DNA of 64,000 nucleotides from Methanospirillum stamsii (GCF_003173335.1 NZ_QGMZ01000008.1:124001-188000), one strand, 5' to 3'. Shown: positions 11,252 to 27,978, counted from the stretch's first letter. Program-made: numbers and translations. The notes: generated by a model from the sequence alone, not told the origin.

Positions 11252-11551
11252 TGAATCCGGAATAGATCTTTCCATATGACAGGTTAAACTGAAGAGTTGG
11301 AGGTCCATTTTTAATGGTTTCCTAATCTGTCCTGTCTTTTGGCTCATATATGCTCAGGGAAATTTGTTTTAACCTTAATCTTTGGTATTTTTGAAGATAT
11401 TACTGCATGAAATGAAACCCTCTCTTTCATGATTTTTTCATTGGATAAAAAATCGTTTCGCTCATCTTTTTTTTCAGTAATGCAAAATATATGGAATGTA
11501 TCGATACTATCATCCGGAACGAGTGGTGGATTCATGAATGGAGGATACAAA
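11252..11551. other. Leader region before the CobN-type gene
   Basis: The CobN frame stays open back to an ATG at 11429, but that extension (MIFSLDKKSFRSSFFSVMQN...) is unlike the conserved N-terminus. GGAGG at 11540-11544 sits seven bases before the GTG at 11552 and marks the likely start. No riboswitch-like structure could be established by eye. Confidence 0.4.
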
Positions 11552-14500
11552 GTGAAAATAGTCTATATTAGTGCAGGAACCGGAGAAAATCCCTGGCTTT
11601 ATGAAGCAGCAGAATCATGTAGTGAAGTTAGCCCGGTTACGATTCTTCAGGCAACTTCAGAAGAACTGGATTCTGAAGAGAAGAGGTTTATTAAAATCCT
11701 GGAGGAAGTAAAAAGCTGTGATCTGCTCCTTGTGAGCAATCACGGAAGTGCCACCTATTTCAAGAAATACGATCGCCTTATTGCTCTGGTCAGGGAGCAA
11801 AAGGTTGGAACCTTTATCGGAAGCTCAATCCCGGAAGAGATGAAGGAATACCGGGATATCTTCCCGTTCTCTGACGACGACTATGACTTTGTTCATGCAT
11901 GTATAGAACTTGGCGGAAAGGAGAACACAAGAAGTCTCATTCTCTGGGCCTGTAAAACCATTGCCAGAATAGAGGTTTCTGTTCCTCCCTTGCAATATCC
12001 ACCGACTGAAGGATTCTATCACCCGACATTACCGGAAGTCTATGATTACGCTGCCCATATAAAACGACTGGATCCTGATAAACCAACAGCCGGAATTCTC
12101 CTTCACCAGTTCTTTTTTGTCAGGAAGAACATCCTTCCGATTGATACCCTGATATCTGCTCTTGAATCCAGGGGGATGAATGTTCTCCCTTTCTTCCTCG
12201 TAACAAGCCCGAATGAGGTCACCGGGGCAATAGGGATTCGGAAATTCATCGAACAGTACCTGATCCATGGTAATAAGCCGCTGGTTGATGTTCTCATCAT
12301 CAACATGTCATTCTCCCAGATTAGTCTCTCTGATCCTAATGACGGGATGAAGAAAGAGCCGATATACAACTTCTTTGATGATCTGAACGTCCCCCTCCTT
12401 CAGACTATCACGATGTACCGGTCATATGAGACTTGGAAGGAAGATGATCTTGGCCTTTCTGCGATGGAGATCTCATCCGGAGTTATCTGGCCTGAATATG
12501 ACGGACAGGTAATCACCATACCCCTTGCCACCACGGATGAATATGAGGGGAAAAAGAACGTTGCAGTGCCAATCCCAGGAAGGCCTGAGCGTATTGCAGA
12601 GATGGCGCTCCGGTGGGCAGAATTGAAACGGACGCCGGTACAGAATAGAAAGATAGCGATATTCCTATACCAGTATACCGGGGATATGGATGCTCTTGGA
12701 GATGCCGGAGGTCTTGATACCCCGAGGAGTATCATCGAGATACTAAAGCGTCTCAAAAATGAGGGATACAAGGTGGATTATATCCCAAAAACCGGGAACG
12801 AACTGATTAACTGGATGATTGCCGGTCTTACCAACGATATCAGGTACATCACCCATGACCAGATGCGGGAGAGATCTGGAGGTTTTGTGAACGCTGAACA
12901 GTATCGGGATTGGTTTTCCAAAATCCCCGAGAAGAATCAGGCCAAAATATCTGCCGACTGGGGTGATGCACCGGGTGAATTGTTCCTTCATGGTGGGGAA
13001 CTCTGTATTCCCGGCCGGATGAACGGAAACATCTTCCTTGGAATACAACCGCCAAGGGGATTATTTGAGCAGGTCGAGTCTCTTATTCACTCAAATGACC
13101 TCGTGATGCCACACCATTACGTCGCTTATTACCGGTGGATAAAGCACGTATTCGGAGCCCATGCGGTGGTCCACGTAGGAACCCACGGAACCCTTGAGTG
13201 GCTCCCCGGCAAGGGGAATGCAATGTCTGAAGAATGCTATCCAGACCTGGTTTTTGAAGATATGCCGCATATCTATCCGTATATCATCAATGATCCTGGT
13301 GAAGCAGTGGAGGCAAAAAGGAGGACCTGGGCAGTCCTCCTTGACTATCTCATATCTGCCATGATGCGGGCAGAAGGGTACGGGGATCTTTCGGAACTTG
13401 ATACGATTCTGCAGGAGTACCTGAGAGCGAAAAGCGGAAAAGAAGAACAAAAATCTGCAGAACTCATCGAAGAGATACACCGGATTGTCCTGGCCCAGAA
13501 TCTCACACATGACTTAGGTCTCAACCAGGATGCTCAGCCCGATGAAGTTGCAGTAAATGCAGAGCGGCTCTATGATTACATCTGTGAGGTCAGGGATACT
13601 ATAATCAAAGACGGCCTTCATATCTTCGGTCTTCCTCCGGCAGATGTTCGTTTCAGGGAGATGATCTATGCCCTGACCAGGCTTGAAAACGGGAATGTTC
13701 CATCTCTTCGTGAGAGTATCGCAGCATCGTTATCCCTCTCTTTGAGATCCCTCCTTGATGATCCTTCGGGATTCAATGAGAAGCACGATCAGATGAACGG
13801 AGCTCTCATCGATATGATCGACTGTAAGAGCCGGAACCTGATTGACCGGATGGCAGAATGCGATTTCAGCCTGGAGGAGTCACTCTCCTTGATTCGGGAT
13901 GAATATGGAGAAGATAATTCTGGCCTTGAAACATGTGTCCGGTTTATCTGTGAGACCATCGTTGATACCCTATATAAGACAACGGATGAAGTGACAAACC
14001 TGGTCAGGGCTCTTGATGCAGGATATGTACCCCCGGGACCAAGCGGGGATCCTACAAGGGGCAATGTTCATCTCCTCCCTACGGGGAAGAATTGTTACTC
14101 GATTGATCCTGCAACCATCCCGACCCAGGCTGCCTGGAAGACAGGCAAAGCTATGGCAGACCTGATGGTTGAGCGGTATATCCAGGAAAAGGGTGAATAT
14201 CCCGAAAGAGTAGGGATTGTCGTCTGGGCGACTGACACGATGAGGACCGGAGGAGATGATATCGCTTACATCTTCTGGCTGATGGGGCTGAGGCCGATCT
14301 GGTCTGACCGGGGCGGTGCGGTGACCGGGCTAGAGGTCATTCCGGCAAAGGAACTTGGAAGGCCACGAATCGATGTAACCCTCCGGATAAGCGGAATGTT
14401 TCGGGATACCTTCCCCATGTTGGTCAATATGATCGATGAAGGTGTTGAGATCATTGCCTCACTGGATGAATCAGATGATGTCAACTTCCTCTCTGCCCAC

Positions 14501-15301
14501 TTAAAACAGGATATGGTGGAGAAGTTAAAGGAAGGTTTCTCCGAGCAGGAAGCCAGAGATATGGCTCTTATCCGGATATTTGGAGACCCTCCCGGAAACC
14601 ACGGATGTGCGATTGGTGAGGTTGTTCATGCTTCTGCCTGGAACGACCGAAGCGATCTTGCAGAGGTGTATACGACCTGGGGTGCTCATGCCTATGGCCG
14701 GAAATACCGTGGAGAGAAATTCCCTGAACTCTTCAGGGAGCAGATGGGGCACCTTGATGTTACGGTGAAAAATCGTGTCTCCCGTGAATTTGATATTCTG
14801 GATGTTGATGACGATTATATCTTCCTTGGCGGGATGAATGCCTGTGTCAAAACCTACGGTGACAAAGATCCGGTATCGGTGATCGGTGAAGCATCAGATC
14901 CGAAGAACGTGAAGACACGCCTCCTTGACGAGGAGATCAGGTTTATTTTCCGGAGCCGTGTGCTCAACCCCAGGTGGCTTGAAGGGCTGAAGCCCCATGG
15001 ATTCAGGGGAGTCCAGGAGGTCATGAACACCATCGAGTACACCTTCGGGTGGGATGTGACCTCTGATGCGGTTGATGACTGGGAGTACCAGGCAGCGACA
15101 GAGCATTTCCTCTTTAATGAGGAGAATAGGAAATGGATTGAAGAGAACAATCCGTATGCCCTTCACAGCATAGCCGGAAGGCTGCTGGAAGCAAACCAGA
15201 GAGGTTTCTGGGATACTGATGACGAGACGATCCGCAGATTGCAGGAGATATATCTTGAGTCAGAGAACTTCTTTGAACAGATGGGGGAAGAGAATCCATG
15301 A
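11552..15301 (+). CDS. CobN/BchH-type metal chelatase large subunit
   Basis: This 1249-aa protein belongs to the CobN/magnesium-chelatase H family, which binds the tetrapyrrole and inserts the metal with energy from I and D AAA+ subunits. The family signature VHVGTHGTLEWLPGKG lies near residue 540, and further conserved blocks (PPSGLFEQVESLIHS-like around 510, GMFRDTFPMLVNMID near 950, WNDRSDLAEVYTTWGAHAYG near 1030) are in order; the length is normal. I and D subunits are encoded in the facing operon. Methanogens insert cobalt early with a small CbiX/CfbA chelatase, so a CobN homologue here must act on another tetrapyrrole or an atypical step. The GTG start at 11552 is chosen for its GGAGG site; longer starts at 11429 and 11534 exist. 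Confidence 0.88.
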   Translation: MKIVYISAGTGENPWLYEAAESCSEVSPVTILQATSEELDSEEKRFIKILEEVKSCDLLLVSNHGSATYFKKYDRLIALVREQKVGTFIGSSIPEEMKEYRDIFPFSDDDYDFVHACIELGGKENTRSLILWACKTIARIEVSVPPLQYPPTEGFYHPTLPEVYDYAAHIKRLDPDKPTAGILLHQFFFVRKNILPIDTLISALESRGMNVLPFFLVTSPNEVTGAIGIRKFIEQYLIHGNKPLVDVLIINMSFSQISLSDPNDGMKKEPIYNFFDDLNVPLLQTITMYRSYETWKEDDLGLSAMEISSGVIWPEYDGQVITIPLATTDEYEGKKNVAVPIPGRPERIAEMALRWAELKRTPVQNRKIAIFLYQYTGDMDALGDAGGLDTPRSIIEILKRLKNEGYKVDYIPKTGNELINWMIAGLTNDIRYITHDQMRERSGGFVNAEQYRDWFSKIPEKNQAKISADWGDAPGELFLHGGELCIPGRMNGNIFLGIQPPRGLFEQVESLIHSNDLVMPHHYVAYYRWIKHVFGAHAVVHVGTHGTLEWLPGKGNAMSEECYPDLVFEDMPHIYPYIINDPGEAVEAKRRTWAVLLDYLISAMMRAEGYGDLSELDTILQEYLRAKSGKEEQKSAELIEEIHRIVLAQNLTHDLGLNQDAQPDEVAVNAERLYDYICEVRDTIIKDGLHIFGLPPADVRFREMIYALTRLENGNVPSLRESIAASLSLSLRSLLDDPSGFNEKHDQMNGALIDMIDCKSRNLIDRMAECDFSLEESLSLIRDEYGEDNSGLETCVRFICETIVDTLYKTTDEVTNLVRALDAGYVPPGPSGDPTRGNVHLLPTGKNCYSIDPATIPTQAAWKTGKAMADLMVERYIQEKGEYPERVGIVVWATDTMRTGGDDIAYIFWLMGLRPIWSDRGGAVTGLEVIPAKELGRPRIDVTLRISGMFRDTFPMLVNMIDEGVEIIASLDESDDVNFLSAHLKQDMVEKLKEGFSEQEARDMALIRIFGDPPGNHGCAIGEVVHASAWNDRSDLAEVYTTWGAHAYGRKYRGEKFPELFREQMGHLDVTVKNRVSREFDILDVDDDYIFLGGMNACVKTYGDKDPVSVIGEASDPKNVKTRLLDEEIRFIFRSRVLNPRWLEGLKPHGFRGVQEVMNTIEYTFGWDVTSDAVDDWEYQAATEHFLFNEENRKWIEENNPYALHSIAGRLLEANQRGFWDTDDETIRRLQEIYLESENFFEQMGEENP

Positions 15302-15378
15302 GACTGAAGAGCATCTCTCTCCGGAAAAGAGTGGGATGCCTGGATGGCATCCGGTCAGGATGGGATGAGATCTCATGA
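15298..15378 (+). CDS. 26-codon mini-ORF linking cobN and the ABC ATPase
   Basis: An ATG at 15298 overlaps the cobN TGA (ATGA), and the frame ends in a TGA at 15376-15378 that overlaps the ATG of the ABC ATPase (again ATGA). It would encode MRLKSISLRKRVGCLDGIRS and six more residues. The double overlap fits a translational coupling bridge or a tiny basic peptide. A purine-rich GGGGGAAGAG lies upstream. Whether it is translated is unknown; two ATGA joints could arise by chance. Confidence 0.4.
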   Translation: MRLKSISLRKRVGCLDGIRSGWDEIS

Positions 15379-16328
15379 CCGCCATTCAGACTGAAGATCT
15401 CACCAAATTTTTTGGAGATTTTTGTGCGGTAAACGGCCTGAACATCGAGGCGGATAAGGAAATTTTCGGGCTTCTTGGACCGAATGGGTCAGGAAAGACG
15501 ACAACAGTTCTGATGCTTACTACCCTTCTCACCCAAGACAGGGGAACTGCAAGCATCTGTGGATATGATACCCGGAAGGATCCAGACAAGGTTCGAAGCT
15601 CTATCAGTTATGTCCCCCAGGATATGGCAATTGACACCAACCTGACCGGACGGGAGAACATGCTCTTTTTTGCTAAATTGTATGGTGTTTCCAATCCCCG
15701 GGACCGGGTTGATGAGCTCCTTGAAGTGATGGAACTCTCTTCCCGTGCCGACGATCTGGCAAAGACCTACTCCGGTGGGATGCGAAGGAGGCTTGAACTG
15801 GCAGAAGCCCTGGTACACGAACCTGAAGTGATATTCCTTGATGAACCAACACTCGGGCTCGATGTTGCAGCCAGAAAGAAAATCTGGGAGCATATCCATG
15901 CACTGAACCGGAAAGGGATGACGATCTTTGTGACTACCCATTACATGGATGAGGCAGACCGGTACTGCGACCGGGTCGGGATCATCAATCATGGCATGAT
16001 TGCAGTCCTTGGAAAACCCGCTGAATTAAAATCACACCTGATGAAGGATGTCATCTCTGTTATTGTAAATGGTGAATATGTGCCAGTAGACCTGGAAGGT
16101 GTTCTGTTTGTCGGTCAATCCGGAGATGAACTCTCGTTTACAGCTGAGAACGGGAGAGAGGCACTCCCAACACTCGCTGATGCCCTCAGCCGTGCTGGAA
16201 ACAGTATCCGGGCTATGTCTCTTCGTGAACCAACTCTTGATGATGTATTCCTCCAGTCGGTGGGAAAGCAGGAGGAATCAACGGGTTTTGAAGAGTGGAA
16301 ATACCGTCTGATGCTCAGGAGGAGATGA
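15375..16328 (+). CDS. ABC-2 type exporter ATPase (DrrA/CcmA-like)
   Basis: This 317-aa protein is a standard ABC ATPase: Walker A GPNGSGKTTT (about residues 34-43), Q-loop VPQD, signature YSGGMRRRLELAEAL, Walker B VIFLDEPTLGLD and H-loop TTHYMDEAD, followed by the DrrA-type C-terminal domain. It would power export through the ABC-2 permease encoded directly after it (TGATG junction). Its place behind cobN suggests that the exporter handles a product or toxic intermediate of the cluster, though DrrAB-type pumps have many substrates. A 26-codon mini-ORF precedes it. Confidence 0.9.
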   Translation: MTAIQTEDLTKFFGDFCAVNGLNIEADKEIFGLLGPNGSGKTTTVLMLTTLLTQDRGTASICGYDTRKDPDKVRSSISYVPQDMAIDTNLTGRENMLFFAKLYGVSNPRDRVDELLEVMELSSRADDLAKTYSGGMRRRLELAEALVHEPEVIFLDEPTLGLDVAARKKIWEHIHALNRKGMTIFVTTHYMDEADRYCDRVGIINHGMIAVLGKPAELKSHLMKDVISVIVNGEYVPVDLEGVLFVGQSGDELSFTAENGREALPTLADALSRAGNSIRAMSLREPTLDDVFLQSVGKQEESTGFEEWKYRLMLRRR

Positions 16329-17053
16329 TGAAAGGAGTATTCACCTACATACAGAGGGATTTTATCCGGTGGTTCCGGTACCGGGTCGGAGTAGTCTCAA
16401 CCCTGGTGCTTCCAGCTGCCTGGCTCATGTTCGTCGGGCTTGCCCTTCCGGTCGAGTTTACGGGAAATTATCTTGATTTTATCACACCCGGAATTCTCGT
16501 GATGACGATTCAGACTGCAGGAATATCAAGTGGATCCCTTCTGATGTTTGACAAGATGCTTGGATTTTTGAATAAGTTCCTTGCCATGCCGGTTCCACGT
16601 GAGAGCATCCTGGTAAGTAAGATCCTCTTCATCACTCTTCGGGGAATTCTGCAGTCAACCATCATCCTGGTCCTTGTAATTCTGATTGGTGCCACGATAT
16701 TAAATCCCCTACAGTATGGGCTGATATATCTCATCCTCTTCCTGTTTGGGGTGTTTATCTCTGCCTTTTCAACCACAATCGCTCTCTATCTGGATGATCA
16801 TGACTCCTTTGCAGCTTTTACGGCCATGGTCACCATGCCCCTCTTCTTCACTTCGAGTGCCCCGATGCCCTATGATGTGATGCCAGATTGGCTTTGTGCC
16901 ATAGCCCATGTCAATCCCTTAAGTTTTGCTATCGATGCTATCCGGGATCTCGGATCCGGGACGATTCCCTTCTTCTCCATCGGGCTTTTAGCTGTCTTCT
17001 CGGTGATTATATTGTGTATATCCGGGTATGTCTTCCGGCGGATTACGGTATAA
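16328..17053 (+). CDS. ABC-2 type permease
   Basis: The ATG at 16328 has AGGAGG at the proper distance and overlaps the ATPase stop by one base. The 241-aa product has six predicted membrane segments (VVSTLVLPAAWLMFVGLAL, GILQSTIILVLVILIGATIL, LIYLILFLFGVFISAFSTTI, ..., GLLAVFSVIILCISGYVF) and the ABC-2 signature region NPLSFAIDAIRDL near the C-terminus. With the preceding ATPase it forms a DrrAB-like exporter. It is the last gene of the forward unit and converges on the nitrogenase-like operon. Confidence 0.88.
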   Translation: MKGVFTYIQRDFIRWFRYRVGVVSTLVLPAAWLMFVGLALPVEFTGNYLDFITPGILVMTIQTAGISSGSLLMFDKMLGFLNKFLAMPVPRESILVSKILFITLRGILQSTIILVLVILIGATILNPLQYGLIYLILFLFGVFISAFSTTIALYLDDHDSFAAFTAMVTMPLFFTSSAPMPYDVMPDWLCAIAHVNPLSFAIDAIRDLGSGTIPFFSIGLLAVFSVIILCISGYVFRRITV

Positions 17054-17162: not shown

Positions 17163-18443
17163 TTACTCGGAAAAATCTTTAACCGTCTGAAAGATCTCTT
17201 CAAGAATCCAGAGGGCTCCTGTTCCTCCTAGGTATGCTTTCTCTGTAAAGTAGATGTCACTGGTCGTCCGGTTGTAAAGTTCAATCGTTTTTCTGCACTT
17301 CCCGGATAATTCAAGATCCTTCCCGGTAAGGCTGTCACCAAAATAAAAATCAGGCTGTACAATAGATGGATCAGCTCCAAGAGCCGGTATTTCATGTGTT
17401 TTGAGAAATTCTGTGAGTTTTCCTGTCATCTCAGGGTCTTGTCCTTCTGCAAACTCAACTGATACCGGAAGCATACTAAGGTACTCAAACAGCCACCTGG
17501 TCAGGGGCAGGACAAACGAGGAGTCTCCCCTGATGGAAAAGGTTGCTCCTTTTGGATATCCTGCTTCATGGTGATACCTCGATATCTGGTGGAAGGCATG
17601 AACCCGCTGTTCTTTGAGATATTCAAGAGCTGGGTTCGGGTCTCTTCCTGTAGCATCGGCGACGGCAGATATCCATTCTTCAGTCTGGGTAAAGCCAACC
17701 GGTGCTCCTCCCGCAGGTATAACAGCCGGGATATCATATTCAGATTCAAGATACTCTGCAGTTTTTGTGGAATACTCCGGATAGACAACGATATTGCAGC
17801 TGGCTGTTGTTGACTCCCTGATCTCTGCGATACCGGATCCTGCACCCGGGACACAGACCACATAAAGACCCATCAGTTCGCAGAGTTTTTTTAGTTCTGC
17901 GACATTACCCTTCCAGAACTTCTGGTTTATAGAAAATCCAAGGAGGTTGACCCGGTTTTTCACTTTGGGAAACTTGTTTAGTTTGAGCCAGCGGAGGATT
18001 GAAACCATTGCCATATCAAACCCGGTTGCCAGGGGGTACGAATATGCTGCTCCTTCAAAGGCCATACAGATAGAATCAAGGTTCGCTTCTACGAGAAACC
18101 GGTTCAGGTCATCTCCGATGAGTGAAGCACCAGGTGAGTTGACAATCGCAAGAAAAGAATCCCCTTTTTCTGCAATGAGTGGAAGGATCTCCCGGAGTTT
18201 ACCAGCAGATCCGAGAATATAGTCATCGCTGTCAAGGTAAGTACAGGGTATCCTCGACTGTCCAAAGAAGAATGGCTCCTCAAAAGATCTCCGGTTCAGG
18301 GAGTTTTCCCGGGGGAAATGCCGGTCAGAGAAATAGGCCGGATTACCCCTGCAGCCGGTAGGGCCGTTCATCACTGCCCTGGCATCCAAAATTCCTTCAA
18401 TCGCAAGCAGGGTTCCGATGAACCCGTCTGGATCCAGTTTCAT
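17163..18443 (-). CDS. Nitrogenase-like component 1 subunit (NifK/BchB position)
   Basis: Starting at the ATG at 18443 (ATGA overlap with the upstream fusion gene, GGAGGGG site), this is 426 aa. The fold family is nitrogenase/oxidoreductase component 1: NGPTGCRGNPAYF (Cys31), RIPCTYLDSDDYILGSAGKL (Cys67, the conserved D-x-Y-GG-like element) and NSPGASLIGDD, which corresponds to the usual C-P-x-x-IGDD but has Ser103 instead of the third cysteine. It is shorter than NifD/NifK. Together with the NifD-like half of the fusion protein it could form a heterodimer holding a bridging Fe-S cluster, as in BchN-BchB. An incomplete cysteine set means an asymmetric or reduced cluster. Substrate unknown. 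Confidence 0.75.
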   Translation of the reverse strand: MKLDPDGFIGTLLAIEGILDARAVMNGPTGCRGNPAYFSDRHFPRENSLNRRSFEEPFFFGQSRIPCTYLDSDDYILGSAGKLREILPLIAEKGDSFLAIVNSPGASLIGDDLNRFLVEANLDSICMAFEGAAYSYPLATGFDMAMVSILRWLKLNKFPKVKNRVNLLGFSINQKFWKGNVAELKKLCELMGLYVVCVPGAGSGIAEIRESTTASCNIVVYPEYSTKTAEYLESEYDIPAVIPAGGAPVGFTQTEEWISAVADATGRDPNPALEYLKEQRVHAFHQISRYHHEAGYPKGATFSIRGDSSFVLPLTRWLFEYLSMLPVSVEFAEGQDPEMTGKLTEFLKTHEIPALGADPSIVQPDFYFGDSLTGKDLELSGKCRKTIELYNRTTSDIYFTEKAYLGGTGALWILEEIFQTVKDFSE

Positions 18444-20611
18444 ATGATCCCCTCCCCGTCCTTTTTCCATCCTTCGGATACCGGCAGTTTCATCAGGAGA
18501 TTCCACTTCTTTGCCCGTTCAATTGCCACCTGAAATCCAAAACCCGGGGCATAGGGGATGTGAGCACTCCGTGCTTCATCAGATCTCCTGAGCGTTGGAT
18601 AGGTGTACAGGACCAGGTCAGGTTTTAGTTCACTGATATCCTCAGATCTCATCTCGATGGAGTACGAATGCACAATCGGGAATGCATCTGCATATCTTGA
18701 TCTGAACGATTCAGAGAATGGGGAGTAGGTTAGTCCTATCTTAAGGATCTTCATCCCAAGATCTGAAGCGATATCTAAAACCCAGTCAAGGGACTTTGGA
18801 TAGGTTGATATAAGGATGGTTTTACCTTCCATATCATGCCTGAGTTTTCTTATCTGTTCCTGATATCTAGCCTCTTCTTCAGCAATAATCTCTTTTGCTT
18901 TCTCTTCCATTCCGAATACCCGTGAAACTTCTAAAAGCCACTGTTTTGTCTCGAAAAATCCGGTTGGGAGGGGGAGATCAAGGAACGGGAGCGATGACCT
19001 GGATGTAAGCATCTCCCTGATGCTCTCCACTGTGTCATCCTTATCAGCCGGCAGAACAAGTCCTGCTTTATTGAAGTTTTTCAGCGATGATGAGTCTGTA
19101 TTTATCAGAAATCTGCAGTTTACCCCGATTCCAAGACGTCCGAGCAGATCCCTGACTGCCTGGTAACTTCTTTCTTCGTTTTCTGCCAACCATTTTTCCG
19201 CGATGAGGTTAACTGATGGGCTATTGGTTTTCTCTGTCTTATCGTCAATCAGGCCGGCTACTGCCCCGTAGCCATCCATGACTCCCTGGACGAAATCCCC
19301 GACAAGGTTCCCGTCCACTTTTACCGGAATTATGCGTACATCCGGATTTCCTTGAATAACAGTCGAGATCACCTTTCCAATATCATCACCGATGATCCCT
19401 GGCGGGCAGGCCGTAACAACGAAGATTAATTTGCATCCGTCCCTGATTACTGAATCCAGGGTCTCTTGTAACTTTTTCTCCCCACCGAATATGAAATCCT
19501 CATCTCTCATATCCGTGGAGATGAGCCGCTCCATCAGTCCCTGCTGATAGGAACTGCCAAATCGTGTTGTTGAATGCTGCCTGGTATCCAGGAGTTTTTC
19601 ATACATCATCAGGGTGCAGCTCCTTGGGCAGTGCATTATCGTCACGGCATCGGAGACCTGGGCAGTTACAGAGACCGCCCCTGCAAAAGCACATCCAATA
19701 AGCGGCTTTTTATTCTTTACGGATACTGACACCGCCTTTCTGGAATCCTTCTCTTCTCCTTGACAAAAGGAGAATCGGTGAATTGTCCGGGAATCGTTCC
19801 TTTGCAGGACAATCTCTTCAAGATCCTCATCACTCAGTGGTAGGGCATGGTGGAGAAGTGCACCACCCCCCATGATGTCTTCTGCATGTACGGCAAGAGT
19901 TCTGAAGACTTCTGCTTCTTCAGAATCCGGGTGTCCTTCAATCAGGGTACATCCAGTTCTCTCGGCTCTGGCAAAGATTTCACTCCTTGGTACACGAATC
20001 ACAACCGGCAGCCTGACAGCTCCTGCGAACCTCCTGACCCGTTCCTCTTCATCAGGATCTCCACGTGCGTTGTGGATGATGCCGGCAATTCTTGGGCCCC
20101 TTTCTGTAAAATTCAGGATCCCTTTCAGGATATTATTGGCTGCATAGAGTGAGAGGTACTCGCCGGAGGTTACAATATACACTGCATCGGCGTATTCATT
20201 CCGAATAGGGACCGCAAATCCACCGCATACCACATCACCAAGGACATCATACAAGGTGAGGTCAAAGAGGTCTGAGCTGACACCGAGATCCTCGAGGAGT
20301 TCAAAGGTCGTGATTACCCCCCTTCCTGCACATCCGACTCCTGGTTCAGGACCGCCTGCTTCAACACAGGCGACATTTCCATATCCCCGAAAGACAATCT
20401 CTTCAGCCCGTCTCTCTTTTGGAAGCTGAGTCTTGATATAACTCAGGGCCGTCATTGGGATTTTCCCCCCAAGGAGCAGACGTGTCGAGTCATGCTTCGG
20501 ATCACATCCGATTTGGAGTACCCGGTGCCCTTTTTCGGCAAGAGCCGCTGAAGTATTTGCAGAAATCGTCGATTTTCCGATTCCCCCTTTACCGTAGACT
20601 GCGATCTTAAT
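18440..20611 (-). CDS. NifH-NifD fusion, nitrogenase-like reductase
   Basis: This is a single 723-aa chain. Residues 1-265 are a NifH/BchL-type iron protein: P-loop GKGGIGKS (7-14), CDPKHDS, and the two [4Fe-4S] ligands Cys94 (GVGCAGRG) and Cys129 (DVVCGGF). Residues ~300-723 are a component-1 domain with GCAFAGAV (Cys307), HCPRSC (Cys328/332) and ACPPGIIGDD (Cys402). Electron donor and acceptor are thus covalently joined, unlike separate NifH/NifDK, BchL/NB or CfbC/D. No ATG, GTG or TTG lies upstream in frame after the previous stop (20654-20656); initiation must be at ATT 20611, which has GGAGG eight bases upstream and overlaps the stop of the ABC ATPase (ATTAA). The next ATG (20455) would delete the P-loop. 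Confidence 0.85.
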   Translation of the reverse strand: MKIAVYGKGGIGKSTISANTSAALAEKGHRVLQIGCDPKHDSTRLLLGGKIPMTALSYIKTQLPKERRAEEIVFRGYGNVACVEAGGPEPGVGCAGRGVITTFELLEDLGVSSDLFDLTLYDVLGDVVCGGFAVPIRNEYADAVYIVTSGEYLSLYAANNILKGILNFTERGPRIAGIIHNARGDPDEEERVRRFAGAVRLPVVIRVPRSEIFARAERTGCTLIEGHPDSEEAEVFRTLAVHAEDIMGGGALLHHALPLSDEDLEEIVLQRNDSRTIHRFSFCQGEEKDSRKAVSVSVKNKKPLIGCAFAGAVSVTAQVSDAVTIMHCPRSCTLMMYEKLLDTRQHSTTRFGSSYQQGLMERLISTDMRDEDFIFGGEKKLQETLDSVIRDGCKLIFVVTACPPGIIGDDIGKVISTVIQGNPDVRIIPVKVDGNLVGDFVQGVMDGYGAVAGLIDDKTEKTNSPSVNLIAEKWLAENEERSYQAVRDLLGRLGIGVNCRFLINTDSSSLKNFNKAGLVLPADKDDTVESIREMLTSRSSLPFLDLPLPTGFFETKQWLLEVSRVFGMEEKAKEIIAEEEARYQEQIRKLRHDMEGKTILISTYPKSLDWVLDIASDLGMKILKIGLTYSPFSESFRSRYADAFPIVHSYSIEMRSEDISELKPDLVLYTYPTLRRSDEARSAHIPYAPGFGFQVAIERAKKWNLLMKLPVSEGWKKDGEGII

Positions 20612-21650
20612 TGGGATCGCCTCCGGTGAGATGCCATGAGCTGGAGATACACTCTACCATCTCCCTGATACTCTGACATTCCTTCTTCCCACCCTGGTGT
20701 GAGATCTGCCATACCGGAGTACTATCGCCGGTAGTGACCTGGATTACGATATCCGGGGAAGACCCATTTGCCGGAACGTATCCTATCCTTTCCATGGCAT
20801 ATGCAGTCCAGATCTTCTGGATGGATTCGGGTGCATCCAGGTGGAACGTTCCCCGTTTTTCTACTGGAATAGTGAACTCACCGCGAGTGGTATCAAAATG
20901 CACTCCATCTATCTCAAAGGCTGATCCGAAGATTCCGGAGAGGACGAGATCTTCAGGAGTTCCTGCAATCATTGTGCCTGACCTGTTCAGGATCCAGAGC
21001 TGGTCAGCACACCGGATAGCAAGATTCAGGTCATGTGTTGAGAGGAGGATGGATTTTCCTGTTTTCTGGGCAACCATCCGGAGGATTCGCATCGTCTCTA
21101 TCTTGTGAGGCAGATCCAGAAAGGCGGTTGGTTCATCGAGAACCATCAGTTCAGGTTCCTGTGCAAGGGCCCGGGCGATCATCACCTTCTGTTTCTCACC
21201 ATCACTCATCTCGTGGATGAACCGGTGGGAGAGGTTCCCGGCACCGACCGAAGAAAGGGCATTGGTTACAATACTCTTGTCTGAATTAGACAGTCTTCCT
21301 GCCCAGTTTGTGTAGGGAAACCGGCCTAGGGCGACGATGTCAAACGCGGTCATGTAACCAGTCTGGACAGGAGTCGTCAGGACTACGCTCAGGGTTTTGG
21401 CTTTTTCATCAGAGGTGAACTCATTGATTCGTCTGCCATGAAGCCAGACCTCACCACATATCGAGGGCTGGATACCGGTAAGTGTACGAATAAGGGTTGA
21501 TTTTCCTGATCCGTTCGGACCTATCAGACAGACCAGTTCCTTTCTTTTAAGCGTTAGGTTGAGGCCTTTTGAGATCTCTTTCACCGCTGTCTTCTGGCTT
21601 TTATATCCGATGGTAAGATCGGTGCAGGATAATACTGGTTTTTCATTCAT
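20607..21650 (-). CDS. BtuD/FecE-type importer ATPase
   Basis: This 347-aa ABC ATPase has Walker A GPNGSGKSTL (about residues 43-52), signature MSDGEKQKVMIARAL, Walker B LMVLDEPTAFLD and H-loop STHDLN, closest in style to the cobalamin/iron-chelate importer ATPases. About 95 residues follow the ATPase core (VHFDTTRGEFTIPVEKRG...), a C-terminal extension seen on some archaeal BtuD-like proteins. Its ATG overlaps the permease stop (ATGA), and its TAA overlaps the ATT start of the nitrogenase-like fusion. It should energise uptake through the adjacent permease and binding protein. Confidence 0.88.
   Translation of the reverse strand: MNEKPVLSCTDLTIGYKSQKTAVKEISKGLNLTLKRKELVCLIGPNGSGKSTLIRTLTGIQPSICGEVWLHGRRINEFTSDEKAKTLSVVLTTPVQTGYMTAFDIVALGRFPYTNWAGRLSNSDKSIVTNALSSVGAGNLSHRFIHEMSDGEKQKVMIARALAQEPELMVLDEPTAFLDLPHKIETMRILRMVAQKTGKSILLSTHDLNLAIRCADQLWILNRSGTMIAGTPEDLVLSGIFGSAFEIDGVHFDTTRGEFTIPVEKRGTFHLDAPESIQKIWTAYAMERIGYVPANGSSPDIVIQVTTGDSTPVWQISHQGGKKECQSIREMVECISSSWHLTGGDPN
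20620..20624 (-). promoter_or_regulatory. Ribosome binding site that decides an ATT start
   Basis: On the minus strand, GGAGG (20624-20620) is followed by eight bases and then ATT (20611-20609), the first codon of IKIAVYGKGGIGKS. This is ideal spacing for initiation, and there is no canonical start in the frame. Confidence 0.7.
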
Positions 21651-22720
21651 GTGATTACTCCTCGTCCGAATTTAGTTCCCCTGACGATCACCCATATTAC
21701 AACCGGTGCACCAAAGAGGGCAGTTATCGCATTGAGGGGCAGAATAATGTCTGTTCCTGGGAGATGGGATATGATATCAGTACAAAGGGCGACTATCCCG
21801 CCTACCAGGATACATCCTGGAACAAGAATCCGGTGGTCGGCGGTGACGAATAATGCCCTGCAAAAATGGGGAATGGCTATTCCGAGAAATCCTATCGGCC
21901 CACAGAATGCAGTTACAACTCCTGCCATGAGAGCTGTGGTTACGATGATGGTTACCCTTATCCGGCTATAATTCATCCCCATACTCTCTGCATACTGTTC
22001 ACCAAGCAGGAGGGCATTTAGTGGTTTAACCAGGCATATCGAGAGGAGATATCCGGCCAGGAGGAGAATGACCATGAACGGGAGCTGACCCCAGGTAACT
22101 CCTGAAAAACTGCCGAATGTCCAGAATGAATACGAATGCATTGCAGATTCATCGGAGAACTGGAGAAGAATGGTAACGATTGCACCACTGATGTACGAGA
22201 CCATGATGCCCAGAATGAGAATCGTGATATTACTCTGAATTTTTGCTGATATCAGCAGGATTAACAGGAGTACTGCAAATGCTCCTACGATAGCCGCTAC
22301 AGAAATGCTGAGGTCACCGATGAAGCCGATAGTGGAAAAGATTGCTCCAATCCCGCATATGCCTGCAGAAAGCATCACGAATGCCACTCCAAGACTTGCT
22401 CCCGAACTTATTCCCAGGATATACGGATCTGCCAAGGGGTTTCGAAAGAAGGTCTGCATGAGGAGCCCTGAAAGTGCCAGGGCACCTCCGGCAAACACCG
22501 CTGTGATGGCCTTTGGCATTCTCCAGTCCCAGAAGATATTCATCCATGTCTCTTTGACTTCCCCACCGGTGATAATCTGAAGAAGAGCATCTAATGGGAT
22601 GTTCACCGATCCCACTACAAGGTCCAGGATGAAGATAAAAATAAGAATTCCAATGATGAGTGGGGCAACAACAGTAAATCGCTTTATGCTGTCGCCGGCA
22701 TCACCTCCTTCGATATTCAT
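21647..22720 (-). CDS. BtuC/FecCD-type importer permease
   Basis: The ATG at 22720 (GGGAGCAGGACAG just upstream) gives 357 aa; a TTG at 22750 would overlap the binding-protein gene. The protein has the ten-helix FecCD layout with the family motifs RMPKAITAVFAGGALALSG, NPLADPYILGISSGASLG, GAIVTILLQF and CGPIGFLGIAIPH. Such permeases transport cobalamin, haem or siderophore-type chelates. Given CbiZ, chelatase and nitrogenase-like neighbours, a corrinoid or other tetrapyrrole is the most likely substrate (inference). It is coupled by ATGA to the ATPase gene. Confidence 0.9.
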   Translation of the reverse strand: MNIEGGDAGDSIKRFTVVAPLIIGILIFIFILDLVVGSVNIPLDALLQIITGGEVKETWMNIFWDWRMPKAITAVFAGGALALSGLLMQTFFRNPLADPYILGISSGASLGVAFVMLSAGICGIGAIFSTIGFIGDLSISVAAIVGAFAVLLLILLISAKIQSNITILILGIMVSYISGAIVTILLQFSDESAMHSYSFWTFGSFSGVTWGQLPFMVILLLAGYLLSICLVKPLNALLLGEQYAESMGMNYSRIRVTIIVTTALMAGVVTAFCGPIGFLGIAIPHFCRALFVTADHRILVPGCILVGGIVALCTDIISHLPGTDIILPLNAITALFGAPVVIWVIVRGTKFGRGVIT

Positions 22721-22736
22721 CTGTCCTGCTCCCTTG

Positions 22737-23921
22737 TTACTCCTGACCAATGTGAGTATAGTAGTAGAATTCGTGATCAGGAAGAAGGTCAGGATGCAGG
22801 ATCTTTACCAGGTCGGCAAGGACAATATCCGGGTGTATGATACCTGACTCCCAGTAATCGTTCCCTCCGTTCTCGTTTACCCTGGCATTATAATGGTACA
22901 CGTTTCCGTTTTTATATGCGTCAAATTTGGCAAATCTTGGATCAAGTGCCAGTAATTCATCGTTATCGTTTGCATACCCGATGTTTATCCAGTAATCTGC
23001 TGCATATGCCTTGTCATAGACGGTCTCGAAATCGAGCATCTGGCTGCCGGTTTCTTCATTATCTCCAAGGATATAATCTCCGCCGGCATCCCTGAAGAGC
23101 TCTGCAACGTAACTTTTTCCTCCGGGTGCATACCATCCTCCCTGGTAATCAATCCCGGAAAAGATCGTGGGTTTTTCGTTTGTTTGCTCTGCTTCTTCTT
23201 TGATATTGTTGTAATTCTGTTTTATCTCATCAAAATATTCGTTGGCTTCTTTTTCCTTGTTATAGAAGAGTGAGAAGAACTTTATCCATTCAGCCCGGGC
23301 GAGGGGGTCGTTTTCCATCCAATCAGCGGTTAGAACCGGTTTTAATCCCGCTTCAAGTAGCTTGTAATGGTTGTCATACTCCTTGTTTCCGTTTGCAACA
23401 CAGAAGATCAGTTCAGGTTCAAGTTCGATAAGATCCTCCATCTTGAGCGTACTTGTCATAGAGACCGCCCCACTGCCTACCTCAATGATATCTCCGTTTG
23501 AGAGCCGGTTTTGGAAACCTTCGTCATGAACCTGTTTCACTCCGTTATGTCCGGTGATGGTTTCAATCTCTCCGAGTTCACTAATGTGGGGGATATGGAC
23601 GACTCCCATCGTAACGACGTTCTGAACCGGGACATAGAATACCTCTGCATCCGGGTATCCGTCAGGAACCTCTTCACCACGCTGTACAAGGAGATATGTG
23701 TAATTTTCTGATTCCCTTCCCCATGGGTCATTAATCTGTACTACCTTGTAGGTGTCATGGTACTCGACAGTATACCCTGTCGCCATCTCCGGATATGCCT
23801 TGTCTGGAAATAGGTCGGTGGTATCGGCAGCACCGCTATAGATACCTGCAATAAATACTGTTAACAGGAAGATAAGGTAACAATTCAAAAATTTACAACT
23901 TTTTTGTGTCATTATTTTCAT
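22737..23921 (-). CDS. Periplasmic-binding-type chelate-binding protein (BtuF/FecB-like)
   Basis: This 394-aa protein has a signal peptide (YLIFLLTVFIAGIYSGAADT) and the two-lobed TroA/FecB fold: VVTMGVVHIPHISELG, MEDLIELEPELIFCVANG (family-typical 'LxPDLIF') and the second lobe IFSGIDYQGGWYAPGGKSYVAELFRDAGGDYILG, ending with the last helix region VLADLVKILHPDL. No lipobox cysteine is obvious, so attachment may be through the N-terminal segment. It delivers the substrate to the adjacent importer. It overlaps the chelatase D-subunit gene by ATGA. Confidence 0.85.
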   Translation of the reverse strand: MKIMTQKSCKFLNCYLIFLLTVFIAGIYSGAADTTDLFPDKAYPEMATGYTVEYHDTYKVVQINDPWGRESENYTYLLVQRGEEVPDGYPDAEVFYVPVQNVVTMGVVHIPHISELGEIETITGHNGVKQVHDEGFQNRLSNGDIIEVGSGAVSMTSTLKMEDLIELEPELIFCVANGNKEYDNHYKLLEAGLKPVLTADWMENDPLARAEWIKFFSLFYNKEKEANEYFDEIKQNYNNIKEEAEQTNEKPTIFSGIDYQGGWYAPGGKSYVAELFRDAGGDYILGDNEETGSQMLDFETVYDKAYAADYWINIGYANDNDELLALDPRFAKFDAYKNGNVYHYNARVNENGGNDYWESGIIHPDIVLADLVKILHPDLLPDHEFYYYTHIGQE

Positions 23922-25792
23922 CTCGGTGAATAGATGGTGTTCTGGACAGATCCGGCAAGTCCTTGAGTGCCAAGTTCTTCAAGTCTGAAATAGAGGGCGT
24001 TCAGGTTACCTGCCAGGACCTGTGCTCTGCCCAACCGGGGAAATCCGGCCTCGGTATCGACGACCACATATCTGATCCCCGTAAAGGCGATTTTTTCAGT
24101 AATCTCTTTCAGTTCTTCTGAGGGGGATTTTCCGTTAATCGGAACGTTTCCTCTTCCATCAGTGAGGATAACGATGGATCGGTTCTCATCTGTAGATGCG
24201 AATCTTCCCCGTGTCAGGAGATTGCATGATTCAATGAGTCCTTTACCAAGGGGAGTCATCCCCCCGGTCGGGATGGTTTTGAGCATTTTTGCTGCATGAT
24301 CCGGACTTTTCGTTGGCGGGAGGAGGAGGTGTGCATCCTTTCCCCGAAAGATCATCAGCCCGACCCTGTCACGTTTCAGGTATGCATCATGAAGCAGGGA
24401 TAAAATAGCACCTTTTACGGCGATCATCCGTTTCTGTACACCCATGGAACCGCTGGCATCGACGAGGAACAGGATGGTATGGGCTACTTTCTTCTCCCGG
24501 ACCTTTTCTCTGATATCACCTTTCGTTACTGATATTGCAAGCCCGTTTCTCTTCCGATGTCGCTGATAGGGAGCAGCCGCCCGGAGCGTTGCATCGATGG
24601 CGATGTCGTTTTGGTTTTTTACCGGAAGCCGGAATGCATGATAGTGACCCGAGGTATCTGTACTTTGTACCCTGGTTCTCCGGCCACTTTTCTGCTTTCG
24701 TGTTGCCTGCCAGGATTGCTCATCAAGGTACCGGATCACCTCGAAGGTGGCTCCGATATCAAAAACCCTCTCTGATACCGGCGGTGGAGGTGGAATACCA
24801 CGATCCTGTTCCTTTTGCTCCTCTTCTTCGGGGTGGGGCTCATCTCTCTCTTCGGGTGGCTGCCTGGTGTCTGGATCCTGCCTGTTTTCCTGGGCATTGT
24901 CTTCTTTCTCTTTGTTCTCTTCGGGTGGCTCCGGTGGCGGGCAGCCCGGTTTTTCTCTTCTCCGGTGTTCAAGAGCAAGCAGGGCTGCCTCTTTAATATC
25001 TTGGAAATTAACCTCGTCTCGTTTGTCAAGAGCTGCTAAAGCACATGCAGCTCGTGTAGCTGCAAGGTCACCCCTCTGACCTTCAACGGCCAGCTCAAGA
25101 CAGAGTGATGAGACCAGATCCTGTAAAGCCTCCGGGATACTGACATAGGGGAGACGATCCTGTGCGGCGGTGACCTTCTCTTTTAGGGAATCTGTCTCAT
25201 GCTGTTGCTCCAAAAGAAATGATTTAGTTTTAGTTTCAAATTTGAGCTGATTCCTTACGATCTCAGCCCGGAGTTCAGTCTCGTCTATCCTATCAAGACG
25301 GACACAGAGATCAAACCGGTCCATTTGTCCGGGAGAGAGTTCTCCTTCTGCAGGATCCATGGTCGCAAAAAAGGTGAACCTGGTCGTGACATGGTGGGAA
25401 AGTCCTTCCCGTTCGAGAATGAAATGTCCGGTATCGGATGTATTGAGGATGTTATTGACTATCCCTTCTTCCATCAGATTGACGTTATCCGCATAGAGGA
25501 TCTGGCCATCTCCTTCTTCTAAAAGTCCTGGGGTAACCTGAATACTACCTGAAGTGACGGCCTTCTCAAGATCAATCATTCCCATCAGGCGGTCAAAAGT
25601 AACAGCCTGTGGAATGGTCTGGATTGGTTTATCCTCTATTGTACCGACCGATCTGACCAGGGTTGACTTGGCAGATCCCGGATCGCCGATAATGAGGACA
25701 CTGCGTATATCTTCATGAACCAATGAGCAGAGCAGTGCCTTTTTGGCATTTTCCTGTCCGACAATGCCAGAAAAAGGGAAGAGGAAGTTCAT
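23918..25792 (-). CDS. BchD/CobT-like chelatase subunit (AAA+ plus VWA)
   Basis: This 624-aa protein has an N-terminal AAA+ domain with Walker A GDPGSAKSTL (about residues 36-45) and a degenerate Walker B ILYADNVNLM, a Pro/Glu-rich linker around residues 290-345, and a C-terminal von Willebrand A domain with MIDAS motif DASGSMG (about 443) and TDGRGNVP. This is the magnesium-chelatase D architecture, which couples the I-subunit motor to the H/CobN subunit. With BchI encoded upstream (ATGA overlap) and CobN in the facing unit the three-subunit chelatase is complete. Confidence 0.9.
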   Translation of the reverse strand: MNFLFPFSGIVGQENAKKALLCSLVHEDIRSVLIIGDPGSAKSTLVRSVGTIEDKPIQTIPQAVTFDRLMGMIDLEKAVTSGSIQVTPGLLEEGDGQILYADNVNLMEEGIVNNILNTSDTGHFILEREGLSHHVTTRFTFFATMDPAEGELSPGQMDRFDLCVRLDRIDETELRAEIVRNQLKFETKTKSFLLEQQHETDSLKEKVTAAQDRLPYVSIPEALQDLVSSLCLELAVEGQRGDLAATRAACALAALDKRDEVNFQDIKEAALLALEHRRREKPGCPPPEPPEENKEKEDNAQENRQDPDTRQPPEERDEPHPEEEEQKEQDRGIPPPPPVSERVFDIGATFEVIRYLDEQSWQATRKQKSGRRTRVQSTDTSGHYHAFRLPVKNQNDIAIDATLRAAAPYQRHRKRNGLAISVTKGDIREKVREKKVAHTILFLVDASGSMGVQKRMIAVKGAILSLLHDAYLKRDRVGLMIFRGKDAHLLLPPTKSPDHAAKMLKTIPTGGMTPLGKGLIESCNLLTRGRFASTDENRSIVILTDGRGNVPINGKSPSEELKEITEKIAFTGIRYVVVDTEAGFPRLGRAQVLAGNLNALYFRLEELGTQGLAGSVQNTIYSPR

Positions 25793-26832
25793 GAAACTTC
25801 GTAAGTCTCCTCAATCAGCGAATGAATGGCTCTGATATCTACTTTACTCTCCTCGAATGGTCTCCGTCTCATCCGGTGGGGAAGTGAGAGGCCGGCAGCC
25901 TTTTTCAGGTGTTCTTTTCTGACCTCTTTCTGACCATCGAGTGCTGCAAATGCCAGGGCAGTCTTTACCAGGGTGAGATCTGACCGGTGTCCGTCAACCC
26001 CGAGGGAAAGAGAGATAGTTACAGCAGTATTGATCAGAGTTTCATCTGGCGCAAGAGATGGGATGATCTCTTTTGCCTGTCTGATTTTATCCCTGATTGC
26101 CTGCTGTTCTGACGCAAATCTATCACAGAATGCCTTCGGATCTGTTTCGAAATCAAGCCTCCTCCTGACAACTTCGGACCGGAGGGAAGGATCTTTCTCA
26201 CCTTCTACATCCACGACAAGACCGAACCGATCAAGGAGTTGTGGCCTTAAATCCCCCTCCTCCGGATTCATGGTTCCAACCAGCAGGAATCGTGACGGAT
26301 GAGAGTAGGAGATTCCCTCCCGTTCCACAAAATTGACACCCATTGCTGCTGCATCCAAAAGAAGGTCTACGATATGGTCATCAAGGAGGTTGACCTCATC
26401 GACATAGAGGATGTTGCCGTTTGCCATCGCAAGCACCCCTGGTTCAAATTTTTTGATTCCTTTCGTGATAGCATGTTCAATATCAAGAGTTCCTGCCACA
26501 CGGTCTTCGGTTGCACAGAGGGGAAGTTCTACAACCCGCATCCGGACAAACTCCGAGGGAATTTTTTCTCCTTTTATTCGTTTCGACTGGCAGGAACTGC
26601 ATTGATTCCTCAAATCAGATGCATCACACCTGAAGATACAGCCTTTCACCACTTCCCGTTCTGGCAGAAGATCGGTGGCAGCTCTTACCATGGTTGATTT
26701 TGCGGTTCCTTTCTCTCCCCTGATAAGAACCCCGCCGATGGAAGGATACACAATATTTGCCAGAAGGGCTTCTTTCATATTCTCCTGTCCGACAATTCCT
26801 GCAAACGGATAAACTGGTATTTCACTTGTCAT
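25789..26832 (-). CDS. BchI/ChlI-like chelatase AAA+ ATPase
   Basis: This 347-aa protein is a magnesium-chelatase I-type AAA+ ATPase: Walker A GEKGTAKSTM (about residues 38-47), Walker B ILYVDEVNLLDD, sensor SRFLLVGTMNPEEGDLRPQL and arginine finger DRFGLVV. A cysteine cluster (FRCDASDLRNQCSSCQ) is typical of the archaeal members. It hydrolyses ATP in a ring with the D subunit to drive metal insertion by CobN. It is separated by 3 bp from cbiZ and overlaps the D-subunit gene by ATGA. Confidence 0.92.
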   Translation of the reverse strand: MTSEIPVYPFAGIVGQENMKEALLANIVYPSIGGVLIRGEKGTAKSTMVRAATDLLPEREVVKGCIFRCDASDLRNQCSSCQSKRIKGEKIPSEFVRMRVVELPLCATEDRVAGTLDIEHAITKGIKKFEPGVLAMANGNILYVDEVNLLDDHIVDLLLDAAAMGVNFVEREGISYSHPSRFLLVGTMNPEEGDLRPQLLDRFGLVVDVEGEKDPSLRSEVVRRRLDFETDPKAFCDRFASEQQAIRDKIRQAKEIIPSLAPDETLINTAVTISLSLGVDGHRSDLTLVKTALAFAALDGQKEVRKEHLKKAAGLSLPHRMRRRPFEESKVDIRAIHSLIEETYEVS

Positions 26833-26835
26833 GGA

Positions 26836-27978
26836 TCACCTGGATAATCCGTTCTTCACATACCAGGAACTGATCCTGATCCAGTTTTCAATGATACTCC
26901 GCCTCTCATCCAGAACGAGGTTGAGATCAGGATGAGTTTTTGCCTCTATCAGGTCTGGAAGTGTCTTCATCATGCCTAGTGCGGTCTTTTTTCCGGATAA
27001 TTCAGGCACAAGACCCCAACCAATCTCGTCAACGATGTGAAGAAGAGAGGCTGTAAGGGTAACAACAGATGGATCACGGGAGAATAACCGGAGATTTTTG
27101 ATAAAGAGGTCCTTTTTATTCTCCCCTTCAAGTGCTGCTCCTGTCTCCCAGTATTTCTTCTCATCTATCCCGAATCTCTCAAGCCTGATTAACATATCAC
27201 GCTGAGAATCAGGGGTAAGATTGGTCTGTCTGGCAAGTGCCTCTGTGGTCGCATCGATTACACAATTTGCAATCAGTTCTCCAAGTTTTGAATGTTTTCC
27301 AGCCCATGTGAGGGTATTCGGGCTGCTCATGTTTGAAATTACACAGATCTGATCGGTTCCGGAACCGGTGGCAATCCCGGTCGAGTATCTGCTTGGTGCC
27401 ATCAGCTGCTGAATGGCAACGGTTTTTGCTTCGGCTGCTGTCATCACCACCCTGGTCATGGTATGAGCCGGAAGATGGGAATTTACGATAATGATGGTGT
27501 TGATAGTTCCACCAACATAGATCGTCTGTCCCTCCTCTTCGTGCCAGGTTGCAGGATCTCCTGCCCTCCCTCCGTTCACTTCAATACCTGCGGTGACGAT
27601 TGCGGTGATCTCAAGGGTTCGAAAAGATCGGGTTGATATTGCAGCGTTCTTCATCTTCGCTGCCGTCATCATGGCAGCAATTCTTTCCGGATCCAGGCCG
27701 AGCCTTCTTGAATGGATTTCCAGGTATGCTTCAACTGACCCTCCTTCCAAATCATGGGCACAATGACCTTTGGTAGGTTTTGGCTCATGGTTGAATATTG
27801 CCTGGAGGTTTTCCTGGTATCCTCCGTTTACATAGGAAGTGGTAAGCGCATTCCGGTTTTCAGGCAATTGTACAACGATCGAGTTTTCACAACGATATAC
27901 CTCCTCCCCGCTGCTTGTTTTATATATCAATTTCAGGTCATTCCTGAAATCCAAAGGTTCACTGTTGATTTCTTCCAA
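26836..27978 (-). CDS. cbiZ: Adenosylcobinamide amidohydrolase CbiZ
   Basis: This 380-aa protein matches CbiZ, the archaeal enzyme that removes the aminopropanol (or pseudocobalamin nucleotide-loop) arm from adenosylcobinamide to give adenosylcobyric acid for re-use. Recognisable blocks are RSFRTLEITAIVTAGIEVNGGRAGD, IYVGGTINTIIIVNSHLP and TGIATGSGTDQICVIS. The N-terminal ~110 residues contain an extra lead region. The start is TTG at 27978 with GGGGTG upstream. As first gene of the eight-gene reverse operon it links the whole unit to corrinoid salvage, which is why the importer is best read as corrinoid-type. Confidence 0.88.
   Translation of the reverse strand: MEEINSEPLDFRNDLKLIYKTSSGEEVYRCENSIVVQLPENRNALTTSYVNGGYQENLQAIFNHEPKPTKGHCAHDLEGGSVEAYLEIHSRRLGLDPERIAAMMTAAKMKNAAISTRSFRTLEITAIVTAGIEVNGGRAGDPATWHEEEGQTIYVGGTINTIIIVNSHLPAHTMTRVVMTAAEAKTVAIQQLMAPSRYSTGIATGSGTDQICVISNMSSPNTLTWAGKHSKLGELIANCVIDATTEALARQTNLTPDSQRDMLIRLERFGIDEKKYWETGAALEGENKKDLFIKNLRLFSRDPSVVTLTASLLHIVDEIGWGLVPELSGKKTALGMMKTLPDLIEAKTHPDLNLVLDERRSIIENWIRISSWYVKNGLSR

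Follow-up and report, generated by a model that had tools for sequence, protein, structure and literature searches.

A conserved fusion of a NifH-type iron protein with a NifD/E-type domain, encoded beside corrinoid-uptake-type and chelatase genes in Methanospirillum stamsii

The fusion gene and its operon

The window analysed here is a stretch of 64,000 nucleotides from Methanospirillum stamsii (GCF_003173335.1, NZ_QGMZ01000008.1:124001-188000), and positions count from its first letter unless another locus is named. One gene of its minus strand encodes a NifH-type domain (H) and a NifD/E-type domain (D) in a single chain, and the gene behind it encodes a partner subunit, K; fusion and partner together are called HD-K below. 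The features are as follows.

11429..15301, plus strand: CobN, large chelatase subunit (TIGR02257, 923.9 bits against the NCBIfam cobaltochelatase cut-off of 822.05)
15375..17053, plus strand: ABC transporter encoded by two genes, one for an ATPase and one for a membrane protein, which lie between those for CobN and K
17163..18443, minus strand: partner subunit K, NifK/BchB-like, 426 aa, with one cluster cysteine (C31), which aligns with BchB Asp36
18440..20611, minus strand: H-D fusion gene, 723 aa, NifH-type iron protein and NifD/E-type domain in a single chain; start probably ATT at 20611
19802..20611, minus strand: NifH-type domain, residues 1-270 (PF00142 over residues 2-269), with P-loop 7-14 and cluster cysteines C94 and C129
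19703..19801, minus strand: putative flexible linker, about residues 271-303 (pLDDT < 50, lowest conservation in the chain, variable length)
18443..19702, minus strand: NifD/E-type domain, residues 304-723 (PF00148), with cluster cysteines C307, C332 and C402 and without the FeMo-cofactor ligands
20607..21650, minus strand: ABC transporter ATPase, BtuD/FecE type (profile matches)
21647..22750, minus strand: permease, FecCD/BtuC family, best model BtuC (profile matches)
22737..23921, minus strand: substrate-binding protein, BtuF-like, Peripla_BP_2 (profile matches)
23918..25792, minus strand: ChlD-like chelatase AAA+/VWA subunit (profile matches)
25789..26832, minus strand: ChlI-like chelatase AAA+ subunit (profile matches)
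26836..27978, minus strand: CbiZ-type adenosylcobinamide amidohydrolase (PF01955, E 4e-58)

The genes of the minus strand form an operon in the order CbiZ, ChlI-like, ChlD-like, BtuF-like, BtuC, BtuD-type, fusion and K, and most of them overlap. CobN and the two-gene ABC transporter are convergent to this operon, and the latter occupies the same place in most close relatives. The K gene starts within the stop codon of the fusion (4-bp overlap, ATGA), and a K gene was found 3' of the fusion in homologous loci wherever the contig was long enough.

The fusion frame is uninterrupted from 20653 to the TGA at 18442-18440, which gives 723 codons if it is read from 20611. Residues 2-269 matched Fer4_NifH (E 9.9e-89) as a complete domain and residues 307-672 matched Oxidored_nitro (E 6.9e-64), both far beyond chance. 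The H domain carries the P-loop GKGGIGKS and both Fe-protein cluster cysteines, C94 and C129, which were invariant across 32 fused proteins. The open frame and the two Pfam domains confirm what a preliminary description, made from the sequence alone, had claimed, namely that a NifH-type and a NifD-type domain share one frame.

We found no ATG, GTG or TTG between the upstream stop and the P-loop of the fusion, and the first ATG (20455) is already within the NifH domain. The best start candidate is probably the non-canonical ATT at 20611, as judged from its setting: it lies eight bases 3' of GGAGG, and 20607-20611 overlaps the TAA stop of the upstream ABC ATPase gene. The ATT-AAG at this position is kept in many relatives, and several have an ATG two to four codons upstream.

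Distribution and single origin of the fused family

The neighbourhoods of 34 fused loci, including the window, were read; they hold 35 fused genes in all, as locus L060 has two copies. Among 232 genomes of the window's class there were some twenty fused homologues. When 393 genomes from the phylum were searched with a profile, 21 matched, every one in a frame of 735 residues or more, and a scan of genome contigs with D as the query recovered only three close loci, plus a distant relative from the clostridia. In the Bacillota, three fused full-length genes were found in 398 genomes and three more in another 199. The survey thus covered methanogens and Bacillota; Deltaproteobacteria and Methanomassiliicoccales, from which the fusion has been reported, lie outside the sample. 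Archaeal copies in the alignment were 39-69% identical to the window fusion, and bacterial copies were lower.

The preliminary description had named a sequencing error near 19740-19830 and relatives with separate genes as possible evidence against a fusion. Separate full H and D genes of the fused family occurred at none of the 34 fused loci read, which had been found with fused queries; an unfused H domain of the family would still exceed the search threshold, and the H-only pieces listed near that threshold were all located in long fused frames. The non-ATG start would suit an artefact of assembly or sequencing that joined two genes, but the chance of this is negligible and sequencing error is ruled out as the origin of the fusion, because the same join is present in 34 other genes at 33 other loci of methanogens and Bacillota, from independent assemblies.

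One of the three Bacillota genes from the 199 genomes, a copy additional to those 34, at locus L135 (G1023), has an in-frame TAA in the linker (9786-9788), just 5' of the first D cysteine, and has no start codon ahead of the first D cysteine motif. Decay, read-through or an error may account for this.

The fused family has a single origin. In the tree, 33 fused H domains formed one side of a branch (SH-aLRT 100) against NifH, CfbC, BchL and other Fe proteins. In addition, the fused D domains formed one clade (SH-aLRT 100), as did the K partners (99-100). The fused D domains fell on the NifD/E side of the D-domain tree. Placement at deeper levels is unreliable in view of the long branches. Most simply, the trees point to a single ancient fusion that was later passed between archaea and bacteria.

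The H-D fusion as such is already known. Dos Santos et al. (2012) mentioned fused NifH-NifE/NifN-like proteins in Archaea, Firmicutes and Deltaproteobacteria in one sentence, with data not shown, and filtered the fused sequences out of their tree; gene context, cluster ligands and function of the fused class were not given (PMC3464626). The window has the same architecture, a single frame of NifH and NifE-like parts followed by a NifN-like gene, and very likely belongs to the same family. A fused nifH/nifE is also named in a paper on Methanomassiliicoccales (PMC4153887). In the literature searched, which mostly excluded subscription journals, we found neither a functional study of the fused family nor the single origin, the tether, the cluster pattern or the corrinoid and riboswitch link described here.

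Putative tether, predicted cluster ligands and relation to known enzymes

The linker, from the end of the final H helix to the D domain, comprises 31 residues in the window protein and 30-109 across 32 homologues. Conservation along the chain is lowest here (mean identity 0.29 at residues 281-300 vs 0.45-0.94 in most domain blocks), and the linker has many Ser, Lys, Glu, Pro, Gly and Ala residues. An AlphaFold model of the fusion as a single chain gave pLDDT < 50 over residues 272-305. From these features, the linker looks like a flexible tether that would still permit docking and release, and not like a rigid link. BchL, a Fe-protein homologue, kept its activity when two of its subunits were joined by an engineered flexible linker (PMC7948495). 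The proposal in the preliminary description that a permanent link forces a different geometry is therefore unsupported, whereas its alternative of a dedicated pair fits a fusion that is real and conserved, so that its interpretation is partly supported overall. The role of the K gene, the corrinoid neighbourhood and the mention of the fusion in print in 2012 were absent from that description. The longest linkers, of low complexity, are those of the Methanosarcina-type copies (L102, L107, L108, L110 and L112), which are without corrinoid neighbours.

A NifH cluster is shared by the two halves of a dimer, and both of its cysteines are conserved here, so two H domains would have to pair, and a D2K2 core would therefore hold exactly one H dimer. 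The fusion fixes the stoichiometry at one H per D, so that each D2K2 would have a single Fe-protein dimer and not as many as two. The pair may stem from one tetramer or from two. The cryo-EM entry 7ut9 represents nitrogenase under turnover with one Fe protein per MoFe protein.

The D-domain cysteines C307, C332 and C402 are the equivalents of NifD C62, C88 and C154 and were invariant in 32 proteins. No equivalents of NifD Cys275 and His442, the FeMo-cofactor ligands, were found in the fused D domains when six homologues were aligned with NifD. Subunit K retains only the equivalent of NifK C95, namely C31, which was invariant in 20 proteins. A P-cluster has six cysteines, three per subunit; here D has three and K only one. 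This 3 + 1 pattern leads to the prediction of a single 4Fe-4S cluster per D/K, with three ligands from D and one from K, much as in dark-operative protochlorophyllide reductase (DPOR), where three Cys of BchN and Asp36 of BchB hold it, but with Cys in place of Asp. The best structural match of the K model was DPOR BchB, with methylthio-alkane reductase also near the top, and the D domain matched methylthio-alkane reductase, NifEN and DPOR at similar Z.

By these features, HD-K resembles DPOR (BchL, BchN-BchB), in which a NifH-type ATPase also serves a heterodimer. However, BchL is a separate protein whereas H is joined to D, BchB uses Asp36 as a ligand where K has Cys31, and the gene context of HD-K is corrinoid and not chlorophyll. 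CfbC-CfbD, the Ni-sirohydrochlorin a,c-diamide reductive cyclase of F430 synthesis, likewise has an archaeal NifH-type ATPase, but CfbD is a single-gene component.

The best-scoring model was CfbC for the H domain and NifD/NifE for the D domain. All curated cut-offs were missed: those for nitrogenase (NifH, 309.6 vs 394.35; NifD, 99.1 vs 653.55), those for DPOR (BchL, 195.9 vs 345.15; BchB, 70.9 vs 490.35) and the equivalog cut-offs for CfbCD (CfbC, 319.8 vs 402; CfbD, 35.9 vs 268.4). In the window genome, which comprises 3.74 Mb in 89 contigs, five NifH-type genes are complete. A separate set scored above the curated cut-offs for NifH and N2ase-alpha, and the CfbC and CfbD proteins of this genome passed theirs with 415.2 and 530.4. 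A role of the fusion in nitrogen fixation or F430 synthesis is ruled out, because the genome has its own sets for both jobs and the fusion fails their cut-offs. Two uncharacterised nitrogenase-like H, D and K sets, unfused, lie beside Btu-type transporters at other loci of the same genome (L065, G000:C9, 7162-10406; L066, G000:C52, 2558-5972); in the former, the D and K genes abut as TGA-ATG.

Corrinoid context and candidate reactions

All 18 loci of the window's order, the window included, had at least one of BtuFCD, CbiZ, ChlI/D, CobN, CbiK and BtuR within 12 kb, and six of the 11 loci of a second archaeal family had at least one such corrinoid or tetrapyrrole gene within the same distance. 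CbiK stood beside fusion genes in 12 loci and BtuR in three. The window genome's nif and cfb loci, by contrast, had none of BtuFCD, CbiZ, ChlI/D, CobN, CbiK and BtuR as neighbours. In the Bacillota, HD-K lies in an operon with an ECF transporter and with alpha-toroid/S-layer and DUF4430 (transcobalamin-type) proteins, the toroid being assigned by eye; alpha-toroid and DUF4430 are the two halves of a transcobalamin-like binder (PMC1796856). A cobalamin riboswitch (RF00174) directly precedes the HD-K operon at two loci, L137 with 98.4 bits and L121 with 34.6 bits, the latter just over the gathering score. Further cobalamin riboswitches occur near the fusion genes of L119 and L136, and the neighbours in L135 include BtuR and methylmalonyl-CoA mutase. 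Neighbourhoods and riboswitches thus link the fused family to corrinoid genes across lineages.

Several further genes were observed in these regions. A conserved TIM-barrel gene (AP_endonuc_2-like, a weak match) stands beside CbiK and the fusion at eight loci, among them L109:15740-16792. L130 (G000:C56, 4014-16660) carries such a module but lacks the fusion; it has a second CobN (62% identical), CbiK, the TIM-barrel gene and a Btu-type transporter. BtuF- and BtuC-like genes beside a short CobN fragment of 418 codons (L131, G000:C35, 4337-8068) may be a degenerate copy of a cluster resembling that at L061. In one Bacillota genome, the gene immediately 5' of the fusion encodes a DUF3786 protein (L120:5821-6426).

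Operon-2 of Dehalobacter restrictus also combines a BtuCDE-type transporter, two CbiZ, CobN and Mg-chelatase subunits; it is under cobalamin riboswitch control, and its proteins rose 46-fold on average under corrinoid starvation, although no nitrogenase-like or nif-type gene is mentioned for it (PMC4285132).

Given that the fusion lies amid genes for vitamin-B12 uptake and metal insertion, HD-K probably reduces scavenged B12-type molecules, not nitrogen. We put at about even the chance that it works in salvage, as a tethered reductase driven by ATP whose substrate is an imported corrinoid. In such an enzyme, of the protochlorophyllide-reductase type, a flexible tether would attach an iron-protein domain to each catalytic D subunit. 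A pair of H domains would hold one 4Fe-4S cluster, bind ATP and dock at the D/K interface, pass single electrons to the 4Fe-4S cluster held by D C307, C332 and C402 and K C31, and undock without diffusing away. The electron would then reach a large macrocycle in the D/K cleft, most likely a corrinoid imported by BtuFCD and trimmed at its nucleotide loop by CbiZ, while CobN/ChlI/ChlD, plus CbiK in many relatives, would handle the metal. The enzyme would most likely reduce this corrinoid once bound, either its cobalt, from Co(II) to Co(I), or its ring, with adenosylation or metal exchange to follow. More tentatively, and at somewhat less than even chances, HD-K may be a self-contained corrinoid reductase with undescribed ATP-driven chemistry (reductive ring modification, or cobalt release or exchange in B12 scavenging), its tether setting one Fe-protein dimer per D2K2.

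Several observations count against a corrinoid substrate. Haem and siderophores are also among the cargoes of BtuFCD-family and FecCD transporters, and the BtuF-like protein of the window weakly matched a haem-binding model. No riboswitch was found in the window between 10 and 32 kb; cobalamin riboswitches are rare in archaea. The five Methanosarcina-type loci had no corrinoid neighbour within about 10 kb. To our knowledge, the tetrapyrrole reductases of this superfamily act on ring bonds of Mg- or Ni-macrocycles and not on corrinoids, and CobN/ChlI/D could serve another tetrapyrrole.

The strongest alternative, though in our judgement a rather unlikely one, is that HD-K acts on another metal tetrapyrrole, which may be an undescribed one, and reduces its ring after metal insertion by CobN/ChlI/D or CbiK, much as happens in the synthesis of chlorophyll or F430. 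A chelatase followed by a NifH-type reductase is the order of the Bch and Cfb pathways; K resembles BchB, the cysteine pattern is DPOR-like, and chelatases of two kinds adjoin the HD-K genes. However, the cobalamin riboswitches, CbiZ, BtuR and the transcobalamin-type proteins point to corrinoids, and an uptake transporter in the operon fits salvage better than synthesis. It is improbable that the cluster instead acquires metal, with cobalt (or nickel or iron) taken from imported metallotetrapyrroles, loosened reductively by HD-K and released by chelatases that run backwards. An uptake transporter, an amidohydrolase and two chelatase types in one cluster would suit this role, but no result here indicates the direction of the chelatases, and we know of no enzyme of the HD-K type that releases metal. 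Least of all do we expect a small-substrate reductase or cofactor scaffold with a FeMo-co-like 8Fe cluster, as in methylthio-alkane reductase or NifEN: the D domain scores best against NifD/NifE, lies on their side of the tree and has both systems among its best structural matches, but it is without the C275 and H442 equivalents, and K is without two of the three P-cluster cysteines.

In the nitrogenase-like enzymes studied so far, the iron protein is free, docks and leaves. A natural tethered version would make the docking cycle, stoichiometry and half-site behaviour accessible in one polypeptide, and it already offers a template for engineered fusions. Should HD-K act on a corrinoid, corrinoids would be a new class of substrate for the superfamily, and the CobN/ChlI/ChlD chelatases of methanogens, so far orphans, may acquire a function.
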